A stretch of 64,000 nucleotides of DNA, taken from contig NZ_BPQV01000016.1 of assembly GCF_022179465.1 (NCBI RefSeq), positions 62,001 through 126,000 of the forward strand, given 5' to 3'. The position numbers and the translations under genes were made by a program. This document shows, in pieces, positions 3,417 through 56,669 of the stretch (position 1 is the first letter of the stretch; each line of letters starts with the position of its first letter). This stretch comes from Methylobacterium organophilum (GTDB lineage: Bacteria; Pseudomonadota; Alphaproteobacteria; Rhizobiales; Beijerinckiaceae). Below the pieces are notes generated by a model. That model was given only the letters and a program-made list of their open reading frames with translations. It did not search any database and was not told the origin of the DNA.

Positions 3417-4937
3417 TCAGCCCCGGCACAGGATCCAGACCTCGCCGCGGCCACCGGCGCCCCCCGGGCCGGAGGCCGCGCCGTTGCTGGCGCCCCCACC
3501 CCCGCCCCCGCCGCCGCCGGGAAGGCCGCCATTGCCGCCGGCACCGCCGGAGCCCGAGCCGTTGGCCGGTCCGGCCCCGCCGCCGCCGCCGCCGCTCGCA
3601 CCTCCGCGGATCCAGGCCTTGGCCGCCCCGTTGTTGCCGCCGAGCCCGACGGCGCCTCCTGCGGCGGTGACGGCCCGCCGTCCCGCATTGCCGAGGATGT
3701 AGCCCTGTCCGCTCGGGCCGCCGGCGGTCGCGGCCTCGCTCGCGGAGATGCCGCCGCCACCCCCGCCGCCGCCGCTGCCCTGGAGACCGTTTCCGCCGGC
3801 TCCGCCGGCGGCGGCGCCCGCGGAGCCGGTGCCGCCGCTGCCCACGGCCAGCGCGCTCAAGCCGCCTCCGCCCGTGCCGCCGCCGGCCGCCGCCGTGGCG
3901 CCTGCGCCGCCGGCGCCCCCGCCCAGGGCCGTCAGCAGGATGACGGAGCCGTTGGCGACCGTGGTGTTGCTCCCGGCCGTGCCGCCGCTGCCATTGGTCG
4001 AATCCGCGGTCTGGGCCGGTGCGCCGGCCCCGCCGGCGCCGATCGTGATGGCGAGCGTCGCCGGAAGGTCGTCGGCGAGGAATTCCTCCACGACCAGGGC
4101 GCCCGCGCCGCCGCCCCCGCCTCCGGCCCGGACCGTGCCGGCGGCGCCGCGGCGCCCCGCGCCGCCCCCGCCTCCGCCACCCATGGCGAAGATCGTCACC
4201 ATACGCGCCCAGGCGGGCCTCTCCCAGGTGCCGGAGCCGGTGAGGGCCGTCACCTCCGTGCGCAGGGCGCCGCGCTCGAAGCTGACGAGGCCGCTGCTCC
4301 GGTCGACGCTGAAGGCGGTCGACCAGGCACTTCCGTCGGCGCTGACCCGGAGGCTCAGGTCGTCGCTGCCGACGAGCCCGATTTCCGCCCGGCCCGAGAA
4401 GGCGCTCTGGAGCAGGAGGGACAGGACATTGGCGGCCCCCTCCTTGTTGAGGGCGTAGCGCAGATCCCCGCTGCCGCCCTCGGCGGCGGGCCTGGCGGTC
4501 CAGAGGGCCTTGTTGAGGCGGGCCGCGAAGGGATTCTGCGCATCCGCCTGCGTGCCGATCCCGAGAAGAGCGAGGTTCTGCAGCCCGGCGATCGTGCTGC
4601 GCAGGTCGATCCAGGCGGAGCCGGTGAAGGCGTAGAGGGCGCCCTCGTCGAGGAGGAAGGCGCACCAGCCCGGCCGGGGTGCGTAGCCCGTCCAGACGCC
4701 GTCGCGGAAGGCGGCGACCTGCCCCGACAGGCCGCTCCAGGCCCCGGTCGGGTTCGCCGCGAGGACGAGGTAGCGGTCCCCCTCGTTCGGCGCGGCGGGC
4801 GGCGCCGCGAGGTCCTTGTCGAGGCAGGCGAGCTGCACCAGCGCGTCGAGGTCGGCGAGCGCCTCGTTGTGGGTGACGTGCTTCTGGGCCTGCCCCGCCG
4901 CGAGCAGCGGCAGGCGCAGGTTCTCGGTCTCTGCCAT
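3417..4937 (-). CDS. DUF2793 tail-fibre-like protein with polyglycine C-terminal domain
   Basis: 506 aa. Residues 1 to about 110 form a DUF2793 domain (MAETENLRLPLLAAGQAQKH, the hallmark start), common after the GTA tail gene in Rhizobiales. The middle is unassigned. From G253 to about 500 the protein is almost wholly Gly/Ala/Ser/Asn, with many runs of 4-8 glycines separated by short hydrophobic segments, ending GEVWILCRG. Such polyglycine segments are known in phage adhesins (for example the Gp38-type polyglycine-II sandwich), so receptor binding at the tail tip is a reasonable inference. ATG with GGAG, 42 bases after g15. Confidence 0.85.
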   Translation of the reverse strand: MAETENLRLPLLAAGQAQKHVTHNEALADLDALVQLACLDKDLAAPPAAPNEGDRYLVLAANPTGAWSGLSGQVAAFRDGVWTGYAPRPGWCAFLLDEGALYAFTGSAWIDLRSTIAGLQNLALLGIGTQADAQNPFAARLNKALWTARPAAEGGSGDLRYALNKEGAANVLSLLLQSAFSGRAEIGLVGSDDLSLRVSADGSAWSTAFSVDRSSGLVSFERGALRTEVTALTGSGTWERPAWARMVTIFAMGGGGGGGAGRRGAAGTVRAGGGGGGAGALVVEEFLADDLPATLAITIGAGGAGAPAQTADSTNGSGGTAGSNTTVANGSVILLTALGGGAGGAGATAAAGGGTGGGGLSALAVGSGGTGSAGAAAGGAGGNGLQGSGGGGGGGGISASEAATAGGPSGQGYILGNAGRRAVTAAGGAVGLGGNNGAAKAWIRGGASGGGGGGAGPANGSGSGGAGGNGGLPGGGGGGGGGASNGAASGPGGAGGRGEVWILCRG

Positions 4938-33400: not shown

Positions 33401-34053
33401 AAGCGGGCATCGGCCTCGAAGCGGGGCCGCGTCTCGCCCCCGCCGGTGACCTTCGCGGTCAGGCTCCCGTCCGGGCCGAGGGCGCCGGTGGCGACCCGGA
33501 AGGGGGTGCCGTTGGACGAGCCCTCGACCTGCCAGGGGCCGCTCAGGGCGGGGGCCTTGAGGTGCACGTCCTCGGCCCGGATCTGGTCGGTGCGGCCCGT
33601 GGCCGGCACCTGCGTCGTCACGGCGAGCTGCTGGACCTGGAGATCCTCGATCACGAGGTCGCGCCGCGTCCCCTCCGCGAGGTCCAGCGGCAGGGCGAGG
33701 GCGTTCCCCTCGGTGACCGGCACGGTCAGCTCGGCCCGCCCGACCCGGGTCTCGGTGAACCGGAACTCGCCCTTGAGCAGCGGCGTGAGCGCCACCTCGG
33801 CCTTCACGAAGCGCGCGTCGAGGGAGAGGCTGCCCTCCTGCCCGAGGACGAGCCGGTCCAGCCGCAGCCGCGGGGACGGCAGCAGCCGCACCGCGATCTC
33901 GCCCTCGCTGCGGGCCGCCATGCCGAGCGACCGGCTCACCGCCCGGTCGACGAAGGCGCGCCGGGCGGTCCAGTCGATGAAGGGCGGCAGCGCGAGGGCG
34001 GCCACGAGAACGAGGATGACGGCCCCCGCGAGCGCGGTCAGGAGATCACGCAC
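30424..34053 (-). CDS. Large AsmA-family envelope protein
   Basis: 1209 aa. One N-terminal membrane helix (about 5-24, TALAGAVILVLVAALALPPF) then the AsmA domain (LPSPRLRLDRLVLGQEGSLS, LTPLLKGEFRF) and a long repetitive beta-rich body. AsmA-like proteins are thought to shuttle lipids between inner and outer membranes (established for the family). Unusual C-terminus: after about 1110 it becomes an Ala/Glu/Gln/Lys/Arg coiled coil with repeated AAQEKAAQE-type units. GTG start, convergent with ilvD. Confidence 0.88.
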   Translation of the reverse strand: MRDLLTALAGAVILVLVAALALPPFIDWTARRAFVDRAVSRSLGMAARSEGEIAVRLLPSPRLRLDRLVLGQEGSLSLDARFVKAEVALTPLLKGEFRFTETRVGRAELTVPVTEGNALALPLDLAEGTRRDLVIEDLQVQQLAVTTQVPATGRTDQIRAEDVHLKAPALSGPWQVEGSSNGTPFRVATGALGPDGSLTAKVTGGGETRPRFEADARFSLRPVPGAAEGVAMPEAEGSARLVVGPPSQIAGPYLPFSLTGKFKARGPVARFETVAAEIDPGGRTMRLSGTGQIDLRTWRAGLNLEARRLDIDGFLISSAGQAWLARGLPKTGLALPVLLDLELAVDSVALGLEEWSGLALKGTFDRGGGLVLRRLTATGPGGARLDASGEADLAQALRFSGHLDVEAVNSANLGRFLNRAGGPETLANLLDGRTLGLATDLSLAGADLSLSNLRLSLGDLRLAGNARYAAGAPNGRGRLEAQISAHGLDIAELPSLDALRAGLRRSDLGLTIQARDVRYGPTGSGNGRIAARIQSDGTALVVDSLDVTDLAGASARLSGRIAPDGSGRIAGHVAAPAAAPLLALVDRFGIPEMRLLPNVLRESPLDLDLTLERAAGDTDSLRIAAKGKAARGSLDGAALSRAGRIESAEIDAATPRASDWFGRDDIVALRQPARLRIAARRVPDAPPAPGAPKPEGAGLLGLSIGGNLAGLALSTDRPILLADDLSAPENGTIGIETPDLTPFLTLAGSAVVLSAPLRAELTLALSRKDRDARADLSGRVAGVPLSASLSRSYDGALTGRASLGRLSLPLLAAALILPTDPGTAADAAGWSTARFAAPPPTPRMVFDLQVGELDLGRGLTARNGTFHLAHEGETLTLRDLSADLAGGKLSGGLRLMRLPKGASLSGEATLTEAALPDLVGEGPLKGRVSGDLRFSSTGESPAALVGNLAGEGRLTLAGLSLPGADPAAIDRTLARALGEDDPLREGRLQGLLAEELSAGALTQAEPVTTSTTLVGGSLRSAPLTLALGPARWTGTLGIDLRSRRLDARGTLVSAGAPKGWPGAAPAIQLGFAGPLTAPERQTDPAPLTNGLAALVLQRELEKIEMFEADQVERQRRRARIEMDRARAAALKAAAEKEAAEKAAQDKAAQERAAQEKAAQEDAARRARQAAAEEAARQARQREDEEARRAATPSAHNPAEPTTSEPAPQP

Positions 34054-44873: not shown

Positions 44874-45803
44874 ATGCTGCCTCTGACCCTTCGCGAGATC
44901 GCCGTGGCCCTGCGCGGCGAAGTGGCCGGGCGGCAGGTGCTCGCCCCGGGCCCGGGCCACAGCCGCAAGGATCGGAGCCTGAGCGTCCAGCTCTCCCCGA
45001 GCGCGCCTGGTGGCTTCCTGGTCTTCAGCCATGCCGGCGACGATTGGAGGGCGTGCCGCGACTACGTCGCCCAGGCCCTCGGCTATGCCGGCGACTGGTG
45101 GCGCGGCGAGGAAGTCGACGAGGCGGAGTTGCAGCGGCGAGCCGAGGCGCGTGAGCGGGCCGAGCTGCGGCACGCGGCGGAGACGGCGCGCCGGCAGCGC
45201 TTCGCCCTCGGGATGTGGAACGAGGCCGGCGACCCGGCAGGCACCATCGTCGAGGCATACCTGAACAGCCGCGCCCTGGATCTGCCGCGCGATATCACCG
45301 GCGCCGTCCTGCGCTTCCACCCGCGCTGCCCCTGGGAGCAGGGGACGATGCCCGCGATGGTCGCCGCGGTCCGCGACGTTCGCACGGGCGCGATCATCGG
45401 CGTGCACCGCACCGCCCTGACGCCCGAGGGCCGGAAGCTCGGTCGCAAGATCTTCGGCACCGCCGCCGGTGGCGCCGTCATGCTCGACCCGCTGGACGCG
45501 ATCGGGCCGACCCTCACCGTAGGGGAGGGGATCGAGACTTGCCTCGCGGCGCGCCAGGTCGGGCTGGCCCCCGTGTGGTCGCTGGTCTCCAGCAGCAACC
45601 TCGGCACGCTCCCCGTCCTCGACGAGGTGTCGCGGATCACTGTTCTGGCGGAGGTCGACACCTCGCCGACCCGGCCCAGCGCGACCGCCTGCGCCAAGAT
45701 CGGCGCCCGCTGGGACGCGGCGCGCCGCACCGTCGATTTCCTCTATCCACCGGAGGGCGCGAAAGACTTCAACGACGCCCTCATGATGGGAGGTGCCGTC
45801 TGA
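44874..45803 (+). CDS. Toprim-domain primase-like protein
   Basis: 309 aa. The N-terminal region resembles the zinc-less primase/DUF7146 segment of prophage primases (RKDRSLSVQLSPSAPGGFLVFSHAGDDW). The Toprim domain at about 205-300 has E218 (GEGIETCLAA), acidic D262 in LAEVDTSP and the end KDFNDAL. Probably synthesises primers for replication of the element. The next gene overlaps its stop by one base. Confidence 0.87.
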   Translation: MLPLTLREIAVALRGEVAGRQVLAPGPGHSRKDRSLSVQLSPSAPGGFLVFSHAGDDWRACRDYVAQALGYAGDWWRGEEVDEAELQRRAEARERAELRHAAETARRQRFALGMWNEAGDPAGTIVEAYLNSRALDLPRDITGAVLRFHPRCPWEQGTMPAMVAAVRDVRTGAIIGVHRTALTPEGRKLGRKIFGTAAGGAVMLDPLDAIGPTLTVGEGIETCLAARQVGLAPVWSLVSSSNLGTLPVLDEVSRITVLAEVDTSPTRPSATACAKIGARWDAARRTVDFLYPPEGAKDFNDALMMGGAV

Positions 45804-47386
45804 TGCGGTCGACGCAAACGATCGAGAAAGACCGCTTCATCCGGGCACGGCGCGAGACCTACTCCGCCCCCGACAAGCAGCGGCAGGCCGTCCAGCCGAT
45901 TCCGTTGCCGGTCGAGCGCGACCGCCTGGACATCGCCCCGGCGATGAGCGCGGCCCCCGTCTTCCCCGTCGAGCGCCTGCCGACGCTGATGCGGGACGCG
46001 GTGGCTGCCCTCGAACAGCACGTGCAGGCCCCCCGATCGCTCTGCGCCCATTCGGTGCTCAGCGCGTCGATGCTGTGCGTCCAGGGCCTCGCGAACGTGG
46101 GGGTGGCGAGCCTGCCCAGCCCGCGGCCGCTGTCCCTGTTCATGCTCGCGGTGGCCGTCTCCGGCGAGCGCAAGAGCGCCTGCGACGACCTCGCCCTCTC
46201 CGCGGTCTCCCGCCACGAGGCCGAGATGCGGGCGCAGCACGAGGAGGAGGCCCGGACCTACCGGGCCGCCCATGCGGCCTACGAGGCGGAGCGCCGCAAG
46301 ATCGAGCGCAACAACAAGGTCTCCCATGCCGAACGATTCCAGATGCTCAAGGACCTGCACGAGCCGCAGACCCCGTTGCTGCCGGTGATCCGCGCGAAGG
46401 AACCGAATCTCGAAGGGCTGCTGAACGTGCTCTCCCAGGGCCGCGCGAGCCTGGGCATCTTCACCAGCGAAGGCGGTCAGTTCCTAGGCGGCCACGGCAT
46501 GACGGCCGAGACCAAGACCCGCACCGTCACCGGCCTGTCCGAGCTCTGGGATACCGGCTCCGCACAGCGGATCCGGGCGAAGGAGACGCTGTTCTTGGCG
46601 GGGCGCCGCGTCGGCATCAGCCTCGCCGCCCAGCCGCAGATCGCCGCGGCCCTGCTCGGTGACGAACTGGCGAAGGATCAGGGCTTCGTCGGCCGCTTCC
46701 TCGTCACCATGCCCGAGAGCACGATCGGCCAGCGGACGATCCGGCCCACCGATCCCGAGAACGACGAGCGCCTGCGGGCCTTTCACAGGCAGTGCCGCAA
46801 GCTGCTCAACGCCCCTCTGCCCCTGAGGGACGGATGCCGCAACGAACTCGACCCGCCGGTGATCGGCCTCTCGTCGGAAGCCTGGACGGTCTGGCGCGGG
46901 TTCGCTCAGGCGGTGGAGGAGGGATGTCGCCCGGCCGGCTGCTGGGTCCCGATCCGCTCCGCGGCGCTGAAGATGGCCGAGAACGTCGCGCGCATCGCGG
47001 GCATCCTGGCCGTGTTTCAGGATCCCGACGTGGTGCGCCGCGAGCCCGACGAGGGGATCGACGGCGAGACCATGGCCGCAGCCTGCGCGGTCGGGAACTT
47101 CTACCTGGCGGAGGCACTGCGCCTGACCGGGCACGCCATCCTCGACCCGGAAACCCTCGCGCAGAACGAGATCGCTGAGTGGTTGAGCGCGGAATACGGC
47201 GGCGGCCTGATCGCACCGAGCTTCATCCAGCGTCTCGGTCCCAGCCACCTGCGCACGGACGCCGAGACCGTGCGCCGCCGCATCGGCGCCTTGGTCGGCT
47301 TCGGACGGCTGGAGCCGGCCGGCCCGCAGGAGATCGATGGCAAGCGATACCGCGAGACCTACCGTGTCCTCGGCGGGGAGGCCTGA
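45803..47386 (+). CDS. DUF3987 (YfjI-like) replication protein
   Basis: 527 aa DUF3987 protein, the usual partner of Toprim primases in prophages and thought to be a helicase-like replication factor. Motifs: LFMLAVAVSGERKSACDDLAL (P-loop region, degenerate), IRAKEPNLEGLLNVLSQG, FTSEGGQFLGGHGM and GRFLVTMPES. The C-terminus has an HTH-like end. The ATG overlaps the primase stop (TGATG), so the two are coupled. Confidence 0.88.
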   Translation: MRSTQTIEKDRFIRARRETYSAPDKQRQAVQPIPLPVERDRLDIAPAMSAAPVFPVERLPTLMRDAVAALEQHVQAPRSLCAHSVLSASMLCVQGLANVGVASLPSPRPLSLFMLAVAVSGERKSACDDLALSAVSRHEAEMRAQHEEEARTYRAAHAAYEAERRKIERNNKVSHAERFQMLKDLHEPQTPLLPVIRAKEPNLEGLLNVLSQGRASLGIFTSEGGQFLGGHGMTAETKTRTVTGLSELWDTGSAQRIRAKETLFLAGRRVGISLAAQPQIAAALLGDELAKDQGFVGRFLVTMPESTIGQRTIRPTDPENDERLRAFHRQCRKLLNAPLPLRDGCRNELDPPVIGLSSEAWTVWRGFAQAVEEGCRPAGCWVPIRSAALKMAENVARIAGILAVFQDPDVVRREPDEGIDGETMAAACAVGNFYLAEALRLTGHAILDPETLAQNEIAEWLSAEYGGGLIAPSFIQRLGPSHLRTDAETVRRRIGALVGFGRLEPAGPQEIDGKRYRETYRVLGGEA

Positions 47387-47387
47387 G

Positions 47388-48125
47388 ATGAGCACGCCCT
47401 CGCTCTTCGATCCGTTCGAGGCGCTGGAGGCCGCCAGACGCGCCGCGGCGGAGCCCTCGGAACTTTCGCAGGAACTTTCGCAACGGCCTGCGAAAGGAAA
47501 TCATGAGCGGTATCAAGAGGTTGATCGAGGTTTCGCAGCTTTCGCAGCTTTCGCAGGCGCGAATTCGTGCGATGGCTCGCGCCCACCCGTGCGTGAAGAA
47601 GAAGAAGAAGATTTTTCTCTTTCTTTTCAGATACTTACGCGAGAGAGCGGGGGCTCTGAAGCACCCCAAACCGAGCGGTCCGACAGCACCCTTGCGAAAG
47701 TTGCGAAAGCTGCGAAAATTCCAGCAAGTGTTTGTGAAAAAACAATAAACTGCAAATCCGACGCTGCGAAAGTTTCGCAGCACGGTCTGCGAAAGTGGCG
47801 CGCCGGCCTGGAGCGCATGGCGCCTGATCGGATGCCGTGCCCCGGCTACCGATACGACGAGTGGGCTCGCGTGCTGGCGCGATGCCTGCGCTTCCTCGAC
47901 CTTTTCGGGGAACAGGCGGAGGCCTTGGGTTGGACGGCACCGCACCTTTTTGGCGTGCACCCGGTCGCCGGAATCGTCCGCGTCGACGCCTGTGGCGCGC
48001 TCGTCCTGCCGTCCGGCGGCGAGCCCCGCCTCCTCTCGGCGACGGAGATCCAGCTCGGGCACCTCACGCATCGCGAGAAGCCCGGGCAGCCGGCCGGGAT
48101 CCTGATCTGGGAGTTCGACCGATGA
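47388..48125 (+). CDS. Element protein with embedded iteron-like repeats (candidate initiator)
   Basis: 245 aa. The N-terminal half is low complexity, because the DNA carries many copies of TTTCGCA/TGCGAAA and an AT-rich stretch; it reads as ELSQELSQ, FAAFAAFAG, EEEEEDFSLSF and LAKVAKAAK. From about residue 140 it looks like a folded domain (PGYRYDEWARVLARCLRFLDLF, GVHPVAGIVRVDACGALVLPSGGEP). It follows the DUF3987 gene by one base and overlaps the next start by 4. Lambda O is a known initiator gene that contains its own origin, so an initiator role is proposed here by analogy. Confidence 0.75.
   Translation: MSTPSLFDPFEALEAARRAAAEPSELSQELSQRPAKGNHERYQEVDRGFAAFAAFAGANSCDGSRPPVREEEEEDFSLSFQILTRESGGSEAPQTERSDSTLAKVAKAAKIPASVCEKTINCKSDAAKVSQHGLRKWRAGLERMAPDRMPCPGYRYDEWARVLARCLRFLDLFGEQAEALGWTAPHLFGVHPVAGIVRVDACGALVLPSGGEPRLLSATEIQLGHLTHREKPGQPAGILIWEFDR
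47464..47794. repeat. Twelve TTTCGCA/TGCGAAA repeats flanking an AT-rich segment (candidate origin)
   Basis: TTTCGCA starts at 47464, 47476, 47531, 47540, 47549 and 47773; its complement TGCGAAA starts at 47489, 47693, 47702, 47711, 47765 and 47788. Two blocks are tandem 9-base units (three copies each, at 47531-47555 and 47693-47717) in opposite orientation. Between them lies AT-rich sequence (47,595-47,635), and a second AT-rich patch is at 47,728-47,757. The 7-mer is read in different codon phases (LSQ versus FAA), so it is conserved as DNA, not as protein. Confidence 0.75.
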
Positions 48126-52942: not shown

Positions 52943-53563
52943 ATGTCTGTTAGGGAAAAAGATAACAAAGAACTATTTAAGCGCGTCCAAGAGCAAAACC
53001 TGCTACGGCAATATGATCTTTTGACTAATTGTATAGAAATAGGGCTTGAGAAAGGTATTGAGTCCTTCGACAAATACACTCTCTGGTCGCTCAATCATGT
53101 GGCGGTGTCAAATATTGCTCAGTTCGGAGGGCGATATAGAGAGCAGCCTATTTATGTAGGCGATCACGTGCCTCCGCATTTTTGTAAAGTATCAAACATG
53201 ATGGACCAGATGTTCTCGCTGGTTCACGAGAATTGGACGCTCAGCGATCATCCAACGCTTCTGCCGGCTTACGTTCTGTGGCGCTTAAACTGGATACACC
53301 CCTTTGTGGAGGGGAATGGCAGAACGGCTCGTGCAGCATGCTATTATTTGATATGCATGAAGTATGGAGCTCTTCTTCCAGGCAGAAAAATAGTCCCTGA
53401 ACGGATTAGAGAAGACAGGAAACCCTACTATGCCGCACTAAAAGCCGCTGATCAGGCGTGGGAAGCTGGCCACTTTGACTTTGGCGAACTCGCCTCCTAC
53501 CTAGAAAAACTTCTAAAAGCTCAACTTGCCGAAGCCGCATCGGAAGAATTTCCATCTGCCTAA
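52943..53563 (+). CDS. Fic-family AMP transferase-like protein
   Basis: 206 aa with a complete Fic motif HPFVEGNGRTAR (119-130); H119 is the catalytic His that activates the target hydroxyl for AMP transfer from ATP. No obvious inhibitory helix motif inside the protein, so control may come from the small upstream gene. Clearly AT-rich compared with flanking DNA, suggesting a recent separate acquisition (a moron). AGGA site before the ATG. Possible toxin or phage-exclusion factor. Confidence 0.88.
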   Translation: MSVREKDNKELFKRVQEQNLLRQYDLLTNCIEIGLEKGIESFDKYTLWSLNHVAVSNIAQFGGRYREQPIYVGDHVPPHFCKVSNMMDQMFSLVHENWTLSDHPTLLPAYVLWRLNWIHPFVEGNGRTARAACYYLICMKYGALLPGRKIVPERIREDRKPYYAALKAADQAWEAGHFDFGELASYLEKLLKAQLAEAASEEFPSA

Positions 53564-53652
53564 TAATACAGGTAGGCGCGCTATATAAATATTTCCTTAG
53601 AAGCATGCCCCCGCGCACATCGCGGCACAGCTACTATCTTGGCGAGGCACCC

Positions 53653-53940
53653 TCAAGGGGGGCGGTAGCCGTGCTGAGCTACGTGAACGATGGCTTGGCG
53701 GAGCGCGGTTTTCGAAGGCTCGGTCCGCTGATCCAGACGCTGATCCAGCGTCCTGCGCACGATGCCGGGATCGGCGCGCTCGGCGTCGCGGATCTGGCGG
53801 GCCTCGTGAATGGCTTTTCGGGTGAGGCCGAGGTCGGCAACTGTCGCTTCAACGTTCCCCTCGGGAACCTTGAAGTTGCGACCGCCCCCATGACCGGCGA
53901 CCTCACCACGCTCCTGCGCAGCGTCGTACTCATCGGCCAC
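53653..53940 (-). CDS. Prophage protein, DUF3102-like
   Basis: 95 aa as given from GTG 53940, but the frame stays open upstream (ELTALLQRIAAAV precedes) and overlaps the end of the HTH gene, so the true start may be further right. Core: ADEYDAAQERGEVAGHGG, LTRKAIHEARQIRDAERADPG, often seen beside replication or excision genes of alphaproteobacterial prophages (recalled). Function unknown. Confidence 0.65.
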   Translation of the reverse strand: MADEYDAAQERGEVAGHGGGRNFKVPEGNVEATVADLGLTRKAIHEARQIRDAERADPGIVRRTLDQRLDQRTEPSKTALRQAIVHVAQHGYRPP

Positions 53941-53969
53941 CGCCGCGGCGATGCGTTGGAGAAGCGCCG

Positions 53970-54251
53970 TCAGCTCATGGATCTCTGGGCGACCTTCGTG
54001 GCGGCCGAGAACGGGGCGGAGTCGAGGAAGGCCTCCAGGTCGCAGTGACGGATGACCGTGCTGCTGCCGATCTTCCGCGAGGGGATCCGGCCGTCCTTGA
54101 TGTACTCGAACAATGTCGAGCGGCTGATGCCGATGGCCGCCGCTGCATCTTCTATCCGGTACGCGAGCGGCACGAACACCGGGCCGCGACGGCGGTGCGC
54201 CTCTGCTTCGGCGACGCCGCCCGCGCGCTCCCTCGGGCGCTCACTGCGCAT
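53970..54251 (-). CDS. Excisionase-like helix-turn-helix protein
   Basis: 93 aa MerR/Xis-type winged helix: VPLAYRIEDAAAAIGISRSTLFEYIKDGRIPSRKIGSSTVIRHCDLEAFLD. The domain covers about 28-80. Such proteins direct excision or act as small regulators in integrated elements. Divergent from the SOS operon; the next gene overlaps or follows closely. Confidence 0.83.
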   Translation of the reverse strand: MRSERPRERAGGVAEAEAHRRRGPVFVPLAYRIEDAAAAIGISRSTLFEYIKDGRIPSRKIGSSTVIRHCDLEAFLDSAPFSAATKVAQRSMS

Positions 54252-54651
54252 CGTCAGCTCCTGCTACACCAAGCTGCGGACAGCCATCGTTGAGCCAGCG
54301 CAGCAGCCTGCCAGTGTCAATGTGCACCCCATCGTCGCCCAGGCTTCTTAACGGACAATTGCATGCCCTGATAAGCGGCGGATCGGTCGGGATGGTAGCC
54401 GGGGCGGGCGGTAAGCGCCTATGCCCGAACGAGCACAGGGTTCGAGCCGTCAGAACTGTCCGACTAGGGCTGCATATTTTCCGGCGAATCCAGCCTCTTG
54501 ACGCCCCAGCGTCACGCTACCCCGTCAAGCCCCGTCGACTGATTCCTCCCCGCTTCCCCCGATCTTCGACGGGCGCCGGATCGTGCCTTGACCGGATGCG
54601 ACCGATGGTTTTGTTCTTCTTTCGTTCTCAATTTCCGGGACGGAGGCAGCC
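54252..54651. other. Control region of the SOS operon
   Basis: 400 bases between the divergent excisionase-like gene and the SOS operon. A LexA box lies near the right end (separate entry). TTGACC at 54588-54593 could be the -35 element for rightward transcription; the LexA box would then cover the -10 region. No gene found. Confidence 0.55.
54613..54627 (+). promoter_or_regulatory. LexA (SOS) box
   Basis: GTTC-TTCTTTC-GTTC, an exact match to the alphaproteobacterial LexA site GTTC-N7-GTTC (established consensus), 25 bases before the ATG at 54652. It should make the small gene-umuD-umuC operon DNA-damage inducible. Confidence 0.88.
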
Positions 54652-54861
54652 ATGGCGACCGCGTCGCAGATCCAGACCGTTGCTGCCATGAGCGAGGCCG
54701 AGGTGGCAGCCATCGCCTATCTCGAAGCCGCGGAGGGAGACACGAAGCGGGCGCTCGCCTTCGCCATCGAGGATCTGCTGCGGGTCGAGCAGGACCTCGC
54801 CGAGATGCGCAGGGCCGTCTCGCAGGGCTACGTCCGCGCGGGCCGGCCGGAGCACGGGTGA
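54652..54861 (+). CDS. Small protein leading the SOS operon (69 aa)
   Basis: 69 aa helical protein (MSEAEVAAIAYLEAAEGD, ALAFAIEDLLRVEQDLAEMRRAVSQGYVR). CGGAGG site before the ATG. First gene after the LexA box and 6 bases before umuD, so co-induced. May be a regulator or accessory of the mutagenic polymerase; family not recognised. Confidence 0.75.
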   Translation: MATASQIQTVAAMSEAEVAAIAYLEAAEGDTKRALAFAIEDLLRVEQDLAEMRRAVSQGYVRAGRPEHG

Positions 54862-54867
54862 CAGCGG

Positions 54868-55341
54868 GTGGCAGGCTCATGGGCTGCGGGAATCAGACAT
54901 GTCGACGAGCTGCCGTCGGCGGGTGACGGTACGGTGCGCGTGCCCCTCGTCGGGCCCGCGCTATGCGCGGGCTTTCCGAGCCCGGCCGACGACTTCCTCG
55001 AAGGCGTCCTGGAGCTGCCGCGCTGGCTCGTGCCGAACCCGCCGGCCACCTTTCTGATGCAGATCCGCGGCGACAGCATGCGCGGGGCCGGCATCCACGA
55101 TCGCGACCTCGCCTGCGTCGACCGCAGCCTGACTGCCGCGCATGACAGCGTCGTCGTGGCCGTGGTCGAGGGCCAGCTCTCCTGCAAGCGCTACCTCGTC
55201 GAGCACGGCCGCCCGCGGCTTGCCTTCGACAACGACGCCATGCCGGTCTTCGTCCTGGACGAGGACGGCTTCGCCGAGATCTGGGGCGTGGTCCGCTTCA
55301 CGATCCGCTGGCACATCGCCCGGGCCGGGATCGGCCGGTGA
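54868..55341 (+). CDS. umuD: UmuD-like LexA-family peptidase
   Basis: 157 aa. Self-cleavage site at A34-G35 ([12 protein letters not shown]), nucleophile S70 (IRGDSM) and general base K107 (LSCKRYL), the standard Ser-Lys dyad. RecA-stimulated cleavage would activate the polymerase partner. GTG start chosen; later GTG codons are possible. Overlaps umuC by 4 bases. Confidence 0.92.
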
Positions 55342-56669
55342 GCGACCCGGCGGCACGCCTGCGCGATCGGATCGGCGGCGGCCGGGCCATCGCCCTGATC
55401 GACGGTAACAGCTTCTATTGCTCCTGCGAGCGCGTGTTCGACCCGCGGCTTTCGGCCGTGCCGCTGATCGTGCTCAGCAACAACGATGGATGCGCCATTG
55501 CCCGCACGGCCGAGGCCAAGGCGCTCGGCATCAAGATGGGCGCGCCGTTTTTCATGATCCGCCAGCTCTGCCAGACGCAAGGCGTGCGGGTCTTCTCCTC
55601 GAACTACACCCTCTACGGGGACATGAGCGCGCGGCTGAACGCGATCTATCGCGACGCGACGCCCGACGTGGAGGTCTACTCGATCGACGAGAGCTTCCTC
55701 GACCTGACCGGCTTCACCCGGCGCGACCGCATCACGCTCGCCCTCGATGTCCGAGCGACGGTGCGCGCCTGGACCGGGATCCCGACCTGCATCGGCATCG
55801 GCCCGACCAAGACGCTCGCCAAGCTCGCCAACCACATCGCCAAGAGCGTCCCGGAACTCGGCGGCGTCTGCGACCTGACCGATCCCACAGCCTACGACCA
55901 CTGGCTGCCGCGCATCCATGTCGGCGCGCTATGGGGAATCGGCCGGGCCTCGCTCGCCAAGCTCGAGGCGCTCGGCATCGATAGCGTGGCAGACCTGCGC
56001 GACATCGACCCGCGCCCTGTGCGCAAGGCCCTCACGGTGGTGGGCGAGCGCATGATCTTCGAGCTCCGCGGCGTCTCCTGCATCGGGCTCGACCTGGTGC
56101 CGGCCCGGCGCAAGGGCTGCGCGGTGACCCGCTCCTTTGCCGGCCGGGTGACCGAGCAGGGCATGTTGGAGCAGGCGATCGCCGCCCACGCGGCCCGGCT
56201 CGGCGAGAAGCTGCGGCGCGAAGGACTGGCGACCAACCACGTCACGGTCTTCTACCATACGAGCGAGCATGACCGCGGCGAGCCGCAGCGCTCGATTCAA
56301 ACCGTCGTCGGGCTGCCGGAGGCGACGAACGACAGCCTGTCTCTGATCAAGGCTGCGCAGCTCGGCGTGGCCCGCACCTGGCAGCCGCAAGGCGTGTCGC
56401 CCTGGCGCTACGCGAAGGCCGGGGTGCTGGCGACGGATCTCGTGCCGCTGGAGGCCGCACCGCGAGCACTGATCGGCCGACTCGACCGCGATCGCTCCGG
56501 CCCGCTGATGGCGGCGCTGGACGCCTGCAACGCACGCTGGGGCCGCGGCACCGTCGTGCCGGCCCGAGCCGGGCTGGAGCGCGCTCGCACGGACTGGTCG
56601 ACGAAGTTCGAGATGCGCTCGTCGCGCTACACGACGCAGGTCGCGGAGTTGCCGACCGCCTGGGCGTGA
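55338..56669 (+). CDS. umuC: UmuC-like Y-family DNA polymerase V catalytic subunit
   Basis: 443 aa error-prone polymerase for translesion synthesis. Metal ligands: D22 ([15 protein letters not shown]), D117 and E118 ([10 protein letters not shown]). DNA-binding helix-hairpin-helix part: [14 protein letters not shown] and [18 protein letters not shown] start with GTGA overlap. Carried on the element under LexA control, so it may raise mutation rates of host and element during damage. Confidence 0.95.

Follow-up and report, generated by a model that had tools for sequence, protein, structure and literature searches.

Introduction

In phage-inducible chromosomal islands and Staphylococcus aureus pathogenicity islands (PICI/SaPI), two sets of short iterons stand on either side of an AT-rich stretch that directly follows the gene for the initiator helicase, and a primase adjoins or is fused to that helicase (PMC6092414, PMC7581432; here and below, cited work is used as described in excerpts of the papers). 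The C-terminal domain of SaPI Rep is reported to recognize iterons directly downstream of its own gene, Rep appears to bind as two hexamers, and for Cch2 binding of the C-terminal domain to the putative origin has been demonstrated (PMC7581432). Here we describe an array of twelve short repeats in a 64,000-nucleotide stretch of Methylobacterium organophilum (contig NZ_BPQV01000016.1, positions 62,001 to 126,000; "the window", locus L001 in our locus tables). Like the origins of those islands, the array lies immediately 3' of a helicase gene, with two repeat sets around an AT-richer spacer and with a primase gene adjacent. The best reading is a helicase-plus-origin module of PICI/SaPI type in which the helicase is DUF3987 and the origin lies inside the next gene. 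We put the probability that the array is the replication origin of a mobile element, with the DUF3987 helicase encoded upstream as its initiator, at about 0.68.

The window differs from PICI/SaPI in its helicase, which is DUF3987 rather than DUF927 or Pri-Rep, and in the position of the array inside a coding sequence. The 9-bp steps and, in some relatives, a 12-site mirror may be further differences. An earlier note on this DNA had drawn a parallel with phage lambda; PICI/SaPI islands, whose origin directly follows the initiator helicase gene, are the closer parallel. Lambda does have initiator repeats within a gene of its replication operon, but these are 19-bp repeats bound by O dimers (PMC5043065), whereas relatives of the window keep the array without the 245-aa product of the gene that covers it, and at 12 DUF927 loci the repeats show no covariation with that product once the helicase is accounted for. 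In repABC replicons of Alphaproteobacteria the origin, oriV, likewise lies in a coding sequence, inside repC, but the repC in question is described in the excerpted text as having no iterons (PMC3155836), and the 245-aa protein has no RepC family match in Pfam, PHROGs or NCBIfam. DUF3987 and DUF927 have been predicted as helicases of mobile elements (PMC5862659), and DUF3987 is among the primase markers of marine satellites in an account whose excerpted text does not mention iterons (PMC10803314). A literature search of partial coverage returned no paper combining iterons and DUF3987, and no description of this array type.

A twelve-site array behind a DUF3987 helicase gene

The module runs from the primase gene through the DUF3987 helicase gene to a 245-aa open reading frame (ORF) containing the array, which thus sits directly after the two replication genes, as first reported (Table 1). 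The helicase start is placed at the ATG at 45803, preceded by GGAGGTG, and Pfam assigns the protein to DUF3987 only, not to DUF927. From the helicase stop (47386) to the first repeat (47464) there are 77 bases. TTTCGCA or its complement TGCGAAA occurs in twelve exact copies within 331 bp (47464-47794), confirming the original count. Six exact copies stand on each side of a 137-bp spacer. The inner three on each side form exact mirrored triples, and the outer three are in looser order. The mirrored triples had been described as surrounding AT-rich DNA; the spacer has 43% A+T, against 29% in the remaining ORF and in the helicase gene, and is therefore AT-richer rather than AT-rich.

The array is the densest 7-mer cluster of the window (331-bp windows, 50-bp steps), ahead of CGGCGGC with nine copies near 3.6 kb. 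When the array stretch was shuffled by mononucleotide 2000 times, no 7-mer occurred more than four times. This upholds the enrichment claimed in the earlier note, but not its chance figure of 0.04, which ignores the choice of 7-mer. Outside the array TTTCGCA has four further copies in the 64 kb, with 3.8 expected by chance (maximum in 100 shuffles: 9). An Rfam search and a plasmid blastn search with the window array both returned no match. The runner-up region (window 3501-4038) is very G+C-rich and dense in CGGCGGC/CGCCGCC, with 17 copies in ~330 bp when overlaps are counted and nine when they are not.

Repeats follow helicase genes

For each helicase locus we compared a 450-bp test stretch, starting 50 bp before the helicase stop, with an equal control stretch 450-900 bp before the stop. 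The set comprised 83 rows with enough flank (DUF927 at E <=1e-80, DUF3987 at E <=1e-30). These are not all independent (L115/L121/L123 and L116/L160; L159 and L160 each contribute a second DUF927 frame), and the four AAA_25 loci with enough flank were excluded from the count. Significant repeats lay 3' of the helicase gene at 31 of 43 DUF927 loci and at only 14 of 40 DUF3987 loci, while none of the 83 control stretches inside the same genes had any. Because repeats follow helicase genes, also behind ORFs with another C-terminal domain or none, the array belongs to the helicase; the assignment is firm for DUF927 and partial, with a weaker margin, for DUF3987. Among DUF927 loci, repeats were significant in 13 of 16 where the "GW..LFG" domain that ends the 245-aa protein was present and in 18 of 27 where it was absent (Fisher p 0.48).

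Tallies from the genome searches are lower bounds, since only some first-look candidates per genome were scored: at least 9/199 for the 245-aa protein, at least 10/385 and 19/397 for its C-terminal domain, at least 10/150 and 20/318 for DUF3987, and at least 8/150 and 17/318 for DUF927.

Selection appears to act on the DNA of the repeats rather than on the peptide

The codon phases given in the earlier note are borne out: the repeat is read as LSQ, GFA/AFA, PAK, LAK, VAK, AAK, VSQ and LRK, in two phases on each strand. Of 35 arrays that lie in an ORF, 25 have same-strand copies in different phases, and some arrays (e.g., L149, L154, L161, L168, L172) have no open frame across them on the helicase strand, to which this statement refers. 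The letters are TTTCGCA in L008, TTCCCAC in L010, TTTCCCG on the circular plasmid of Methylobacterium sp. WL1, and others again across Alphaproteobacterial homologues. The array is mostly kept while its letters, and hence the peptide, change. This supports the proposal that selection acts on the DNA of the repeats; in the homologue comparison suggested at the time, helicase-bearing homologues mostly keep the array, and a retained peptide with a lost 7-mer was not seen.

Array geometry

Tandem 7-mer pairs are spaced at 9 bp in 453 cases, and no other period between 7 and 15 bp accounts for more than 36. When the tandem pair also has an inverted partner pair, the locus entries number 21 at 9 bp, two at 8, one at 15, 17 at 18 and none at 10-13; several of the entries are the same place, and triples would be expected to yield the 18-bp pairs. 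Mirror symmetry reaches p <=0.01 in eight of the 40 arrays listed (L010, L038, L053, L112, L118, L120, L154, L161). In L118 all 12 exact sites are mirror-paired. L010 and WL1 match its distances within ~2 bp; the exceptions are an outer site in WL1 and a reversed site in L010, and each has an extra one-mismatch site relative to L118. The letters differ among the three loci, being TTGGTCA in L118. In five loci, which include close relatives, the array contains no more than one exact inverted copy.

Repeat letters track the helicase

A motif entered the set with at least four copies and at most 3/100 or 2/200 shuffles as good. Eight loci were admitted at up to 15/200 (L037, L051, L057, L063, L072, L076, L081, L083), and six low-complexity or G+C-rich 7-mers were excluded by hand (AAAAACA, CGGCGGC, CCGCCCG, ACCCCGC, CCTGGCG, TAAAAAA). 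Mantel tests used the 49 motifs with at least four copies and left out helicases of >=90% identity; for the class comparison four of the 49 were removed at 70% identity, leaving 45.

Motifs resemble each other more within a helicase class than across classes (45 motifs, p=5e-5), both among the 23 loci with the C-terminal domain (p=5e-5) and among the 22 without it (p=0.003). Presence of the domain is not a significant predictor of the letters within DUF927 (27 motifs, p=0.07), and the Mantel correlation of letters with helicase identity is significant in both classes. At the 12 DUF927 loci that carry the domain, the letters correlate with the helicase C-terminus at r=0.45, with the helicase core at r=0.33 and with the domain at r=0.31 (p=0.02). 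The partial correlation with the helicase given the domain is r=0.35 (p=0.004), and that with the domain given the helicase C-terminus is r=-0.03 (p=0.59). By eye, a loose theme T(G/T)TNNC(A/C) recurs in many arrays of all three helicase classes (TTTCGCA, TGTAGCA, TGTCCCA, TGTCACA and TGTTACA, for example).

Structure model of the helicase

The structure model of the window helicase has an AAA+ core like that of minichromosome maintenance (MCM) helicases and places the protein in the MCM AAA+ fold, a predicted likeness from which it departs in sequence, with only 10-15% identity to MCM helicases. MCM helicases are not known to bind iterons sequence-specifically. The modelled C-terminus consists of helices 449-465, 472-478 and 487-499 and strands 503-511 and 514-522, with a predicted local distance difference test score (pLDDT) of 85-95 over 10-residue blocks from 451 to 520, and is probably a winged helix. 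Structural alignments that reach residues 523-525 have root-mean-square deviations of 7.7-11.7 A and barely probe this part. DUF927 relatives align with the solved structures 8tch and 5dgk, which we take to be SaPI Rep and Cch of the staphylococcal cassette chromosome mec (SCCmec), respectively, and one of them matches the NCBIfam model SCCmet_Cch1, far below its cut-off. Neither 8tch nor 5dgk is among the 50 structural matches listed for the window helicase, which excludes nothing, and a PDB sequence search with DUF3987 gave a single weak 36-residue P-loop match.

The 245-aa protein and its C-terminal domain

We collected 52 distinct members of the C-terminal domain family, the window ORF included. 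Relatives of the 245-aa protein occur in plasmid records of Methylobacterium (21) and Methylorubrum (1). Where a DUF3987, DUF927 or AAA_25 helicase (identified by Pfam) is encoded in the upstream flank, repeats are significant at <=2/200 shuffles in 25 of 32 family members; where none is, they are significant in two of 20 (WL1 and L022). The earlier note had proposed the 245-aa product as an initiator of a new type. Arrays behind helicases without this family, and letters that track the helicase, speak against that proposal, while the iteron origin itself is supported as part of the primase-helicase module. The reading thus shifts from a new initiator protein with its origin to a helicase with an origin covered by a reading frame.

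The 245-aa protein had no match in Pfam, PHROGs or NCBIfam (in NCBIfam, two relatives had none either), and a PDB sequence search with its family gave short, weak matches only (best E 0.0037). It had no match in the phage collection and no relative on viral contigs; the L012 domain likewise had no phage match, and a family alignment search found no viral-contig relative. The only relative in the phage collection, one of L075 (MT835519, L093), encodes a DUF927 protein and carries the domain, with repeats that are not significant.

The ORF over the array in L118 has no recognisable C-terminal domain. In L112 and L120, both downstream of DUF927, its C-terminus is a different domain, and the two share W(I/L)NRNP.PS..G.C.HCG. 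A short (D/E)ERA stretch precedes that domain; L110 and L116 have it too, as do many of the 245-aa family members. Different domains seem to swap behind one kind of linker. The "GW..LFG" domain also occurs as stand-alone genes on Methylobacterium plasmids, sometimes adjoining umuDC. In L043 (~2203-2390), tandem repeats arranged as an inverted pair (GTTTGGC/TTTGGCC) stand 5' of the domain gene and seem to precede its likely start instead of lying in its linker.

Features of the module and its neighbourhood

Table 1. Coordinates of the replication module and repeat array in the 64,000-nucleotide window
Feature	Position	Strand	Remarks
Primase gene, 309 aa	44874..45803	+	DUF7146 + Toprim_3; PHROG 510 DNA primase
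DUF3987 helicase gene (527 aa), putative initiator that loads itself	45803..47386	+	PHROG 2373 DNA helicase
Probable C-terminal winged helix (codons 449-522), proposed repeat reader	47147..47368	+	from structure model
245-aa ORF	47388..48125	+	array in 5' half
Outer left repeats	47464+, 47476+, 47489- (47464..47495)		exact 7-mer matches
Inner left triple, 9-bp steps	47531, 47540, 47549 (47531..47555)	+	exact TTTCGCA
AT-richer spacer, candidate melting region	47556..47692		137 bp; mirror centre near 47624
Inner right inverted triple, 9-bp steps	47693, 47702, 47711 (47693..47717)	-	exact
13th copy	47733	-	one mismatch
Outer right repeats	47765-, 47773+, 47788- (47765..47794)		exact 7-mer matches
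C-terminal "GW..LFG" domain of 245-aa ORF	47766..48122	+	

Downstream of the module (window 52943-56669) are a Fic-domain gene, a gene for an S24 peptidase (umuD-like) and one for a Y-family polymerase with DUF4113 (umuC-like). No match to int, stl/alpA, terS or capsid interference genes was found among the ORFs scanned, which are part of those in the window.

Discussion

The array is probably a real, functional origin. In the mechanism that we propose, the helicase would form an MCM-like AAA+ ring and contact the repeats, spaced at 9 bp, through its C-terminal winged helices. Two hexamers would sit to the left and right of the AT-richer spacer in opposite orientation, and the spacer would melt there; the Toprim primase of the neighbouring gene would prime synthesis, and host polymerases would extend it. 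The twelve sites, as two sets of six, suggest two rings of six. The short ORF would simply cover the origin, with the repeats read through as a variable linker before a small conserved domain. Since the letters drift together with the helicase, each element's origin would be private to its own helicase. A bolder version, which we offer tentatively and with the odds somewhat against it, is that the MCM-like helicases of the DUF3987 and DUF927 families are initiators that load themselves: two opposed rings would together present twelve winged helices to a mirrored array of 12 sites, so that each subunit reads one site. Origins of this type would then be widespread in Alphaproteobacterial mobile elements, their letters diversifying while their base-pair geometry stays and short ORFs repeatedly come to cover them, and would be a bacterial counterpart of MCM double-hexamer loading.

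Several observations weigh against the helicase as initiator at this origin. Besides the low share of DUF3987 genes with arrays, a second DUF3987 gene in the same genome (L111, G000:C6:247896-248954) has no significant array, and seven of the 32 family members with a helicase lack significant repeats (L007, L012, L040, L051, L057, L073, L084). Some of the 45 positive loci are A+T-rich or have only four copies (e.g., L156, L158, L143). DUF3987 arrays are commoner where the C-terminal domain is present (7/11 versus 7/29 without; Fisher p 0.03), in a comparison whose domain-bearing loci were mostly found via that domain. The profiles of DUF3987 and DUF927 match only weakly (hhalign probability 27%, E 0.0007). 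Mirror symmetry is modest in the window (four pairs, p=0.019) and not significant at 0.01 in 32 of the 40 arrays listed, and AAA_25 arrays use 8-bp steps more than 9-bp steps. No partial correlation is significant at the eight DUF3987 loci with the domain, and the data do not separate the helicase core from its C-terminus as the part that the letters track. The array stretch also folds strongly as RNA (z -6.8, 0/100 shuffles as good), so that a strong hairpin is possible. Finally, the WL1 plasmid (L035, NZ_CP042822.1 ~33627-33913; L018 1819-2105) has a 13-site array, 10 exact and three with one mismatch, but no DUF3987, DUF927 or AAA_25 helicase. Its GC skew has a minimum at 19.9 kb and a maximum at 3.1 kb, with no turn at the array (~33.7 kb). 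A scan of 10 of its 47 annotated proteins revealed no evident replication protein, and plasmid blastn with its array matched only itself. In such orphan arrays the helicase could be supplied in trans.

A lambda-type arrangement, in which the 245-aa protein is the initiator, binds the repeats in its own gene through its C-terminal domain and recruits the helicase, has precedents in the lambda origin within gene O (PMC5043065) and in oriV within repC (PMC3155836). It would account for the repeats inside the gene in the window and in most family members with a helicase (25/32), for the excess of DUF3987 arrays beside the family, for a domain and an array on WL1 without a helicase, and for the uncorrected correlation of letters with domain at the 12 DUF927 loci. 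We nevertheless consider it unlikely: significant repeats persist at the 18 of 27 DUF927 loci without the domain, some of them with another C-terminal domain or none; the domain without an upstream helicase goes with no significant repeats in 18 of 20 cases; and among domain-bearing loci the letters follow the helicase class, with a nil partial correlation for the domain in DUF927. Slightly less probable still is a role as an operator, a parS-like partition site or an incompatibility site for another element protein. Mirrored short inverted and direct repeats would suit such a site, as would the WL1 array with its lack of a helicase, but the arrays are tied to replicative helicase genes of different families (other neighbours were not systematically compared) and their letters covary with the helicase.

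Retention of the inverted triples for an mRNA hairpin that regulates the helicase operon would explain the folding of the window stretch, whose arms are nearly complementary. Across 12 loci, however, the 7-mer cores match between the arms at 243 of 252 positions and the two-base spacers at only 28 of 48, with 21 expected from composition, and five loci have at most one exact inverted copy; we consider this reading very improbable. We give almost no credence to a repeat kept for its peptide, in a protein that requires FAA/LSQ/LAK-like units. The 9-bp step does equal three codons, but identical DNA is read in several phases and on both strands, including the 25 of 35 arrays that are multi-phase on one strand, and L149 and L168 keep the step with no open helicase-strand frame over the array.

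With the upstream helicase as initiator, the little-studied DUF3987 helicases would gain a function that can be tested and a DNA target that can be seen in the sequence. Repeats in 9-bp steps, often mirrored, 3' of a gene for an MCM-like helicase would serve as a signature for the origins of Alphaproteobacterial islands, prophages and plasmids. If two rings do load on the array, it may offer a simple system for the head-to-head placement of paired replicative helicases.
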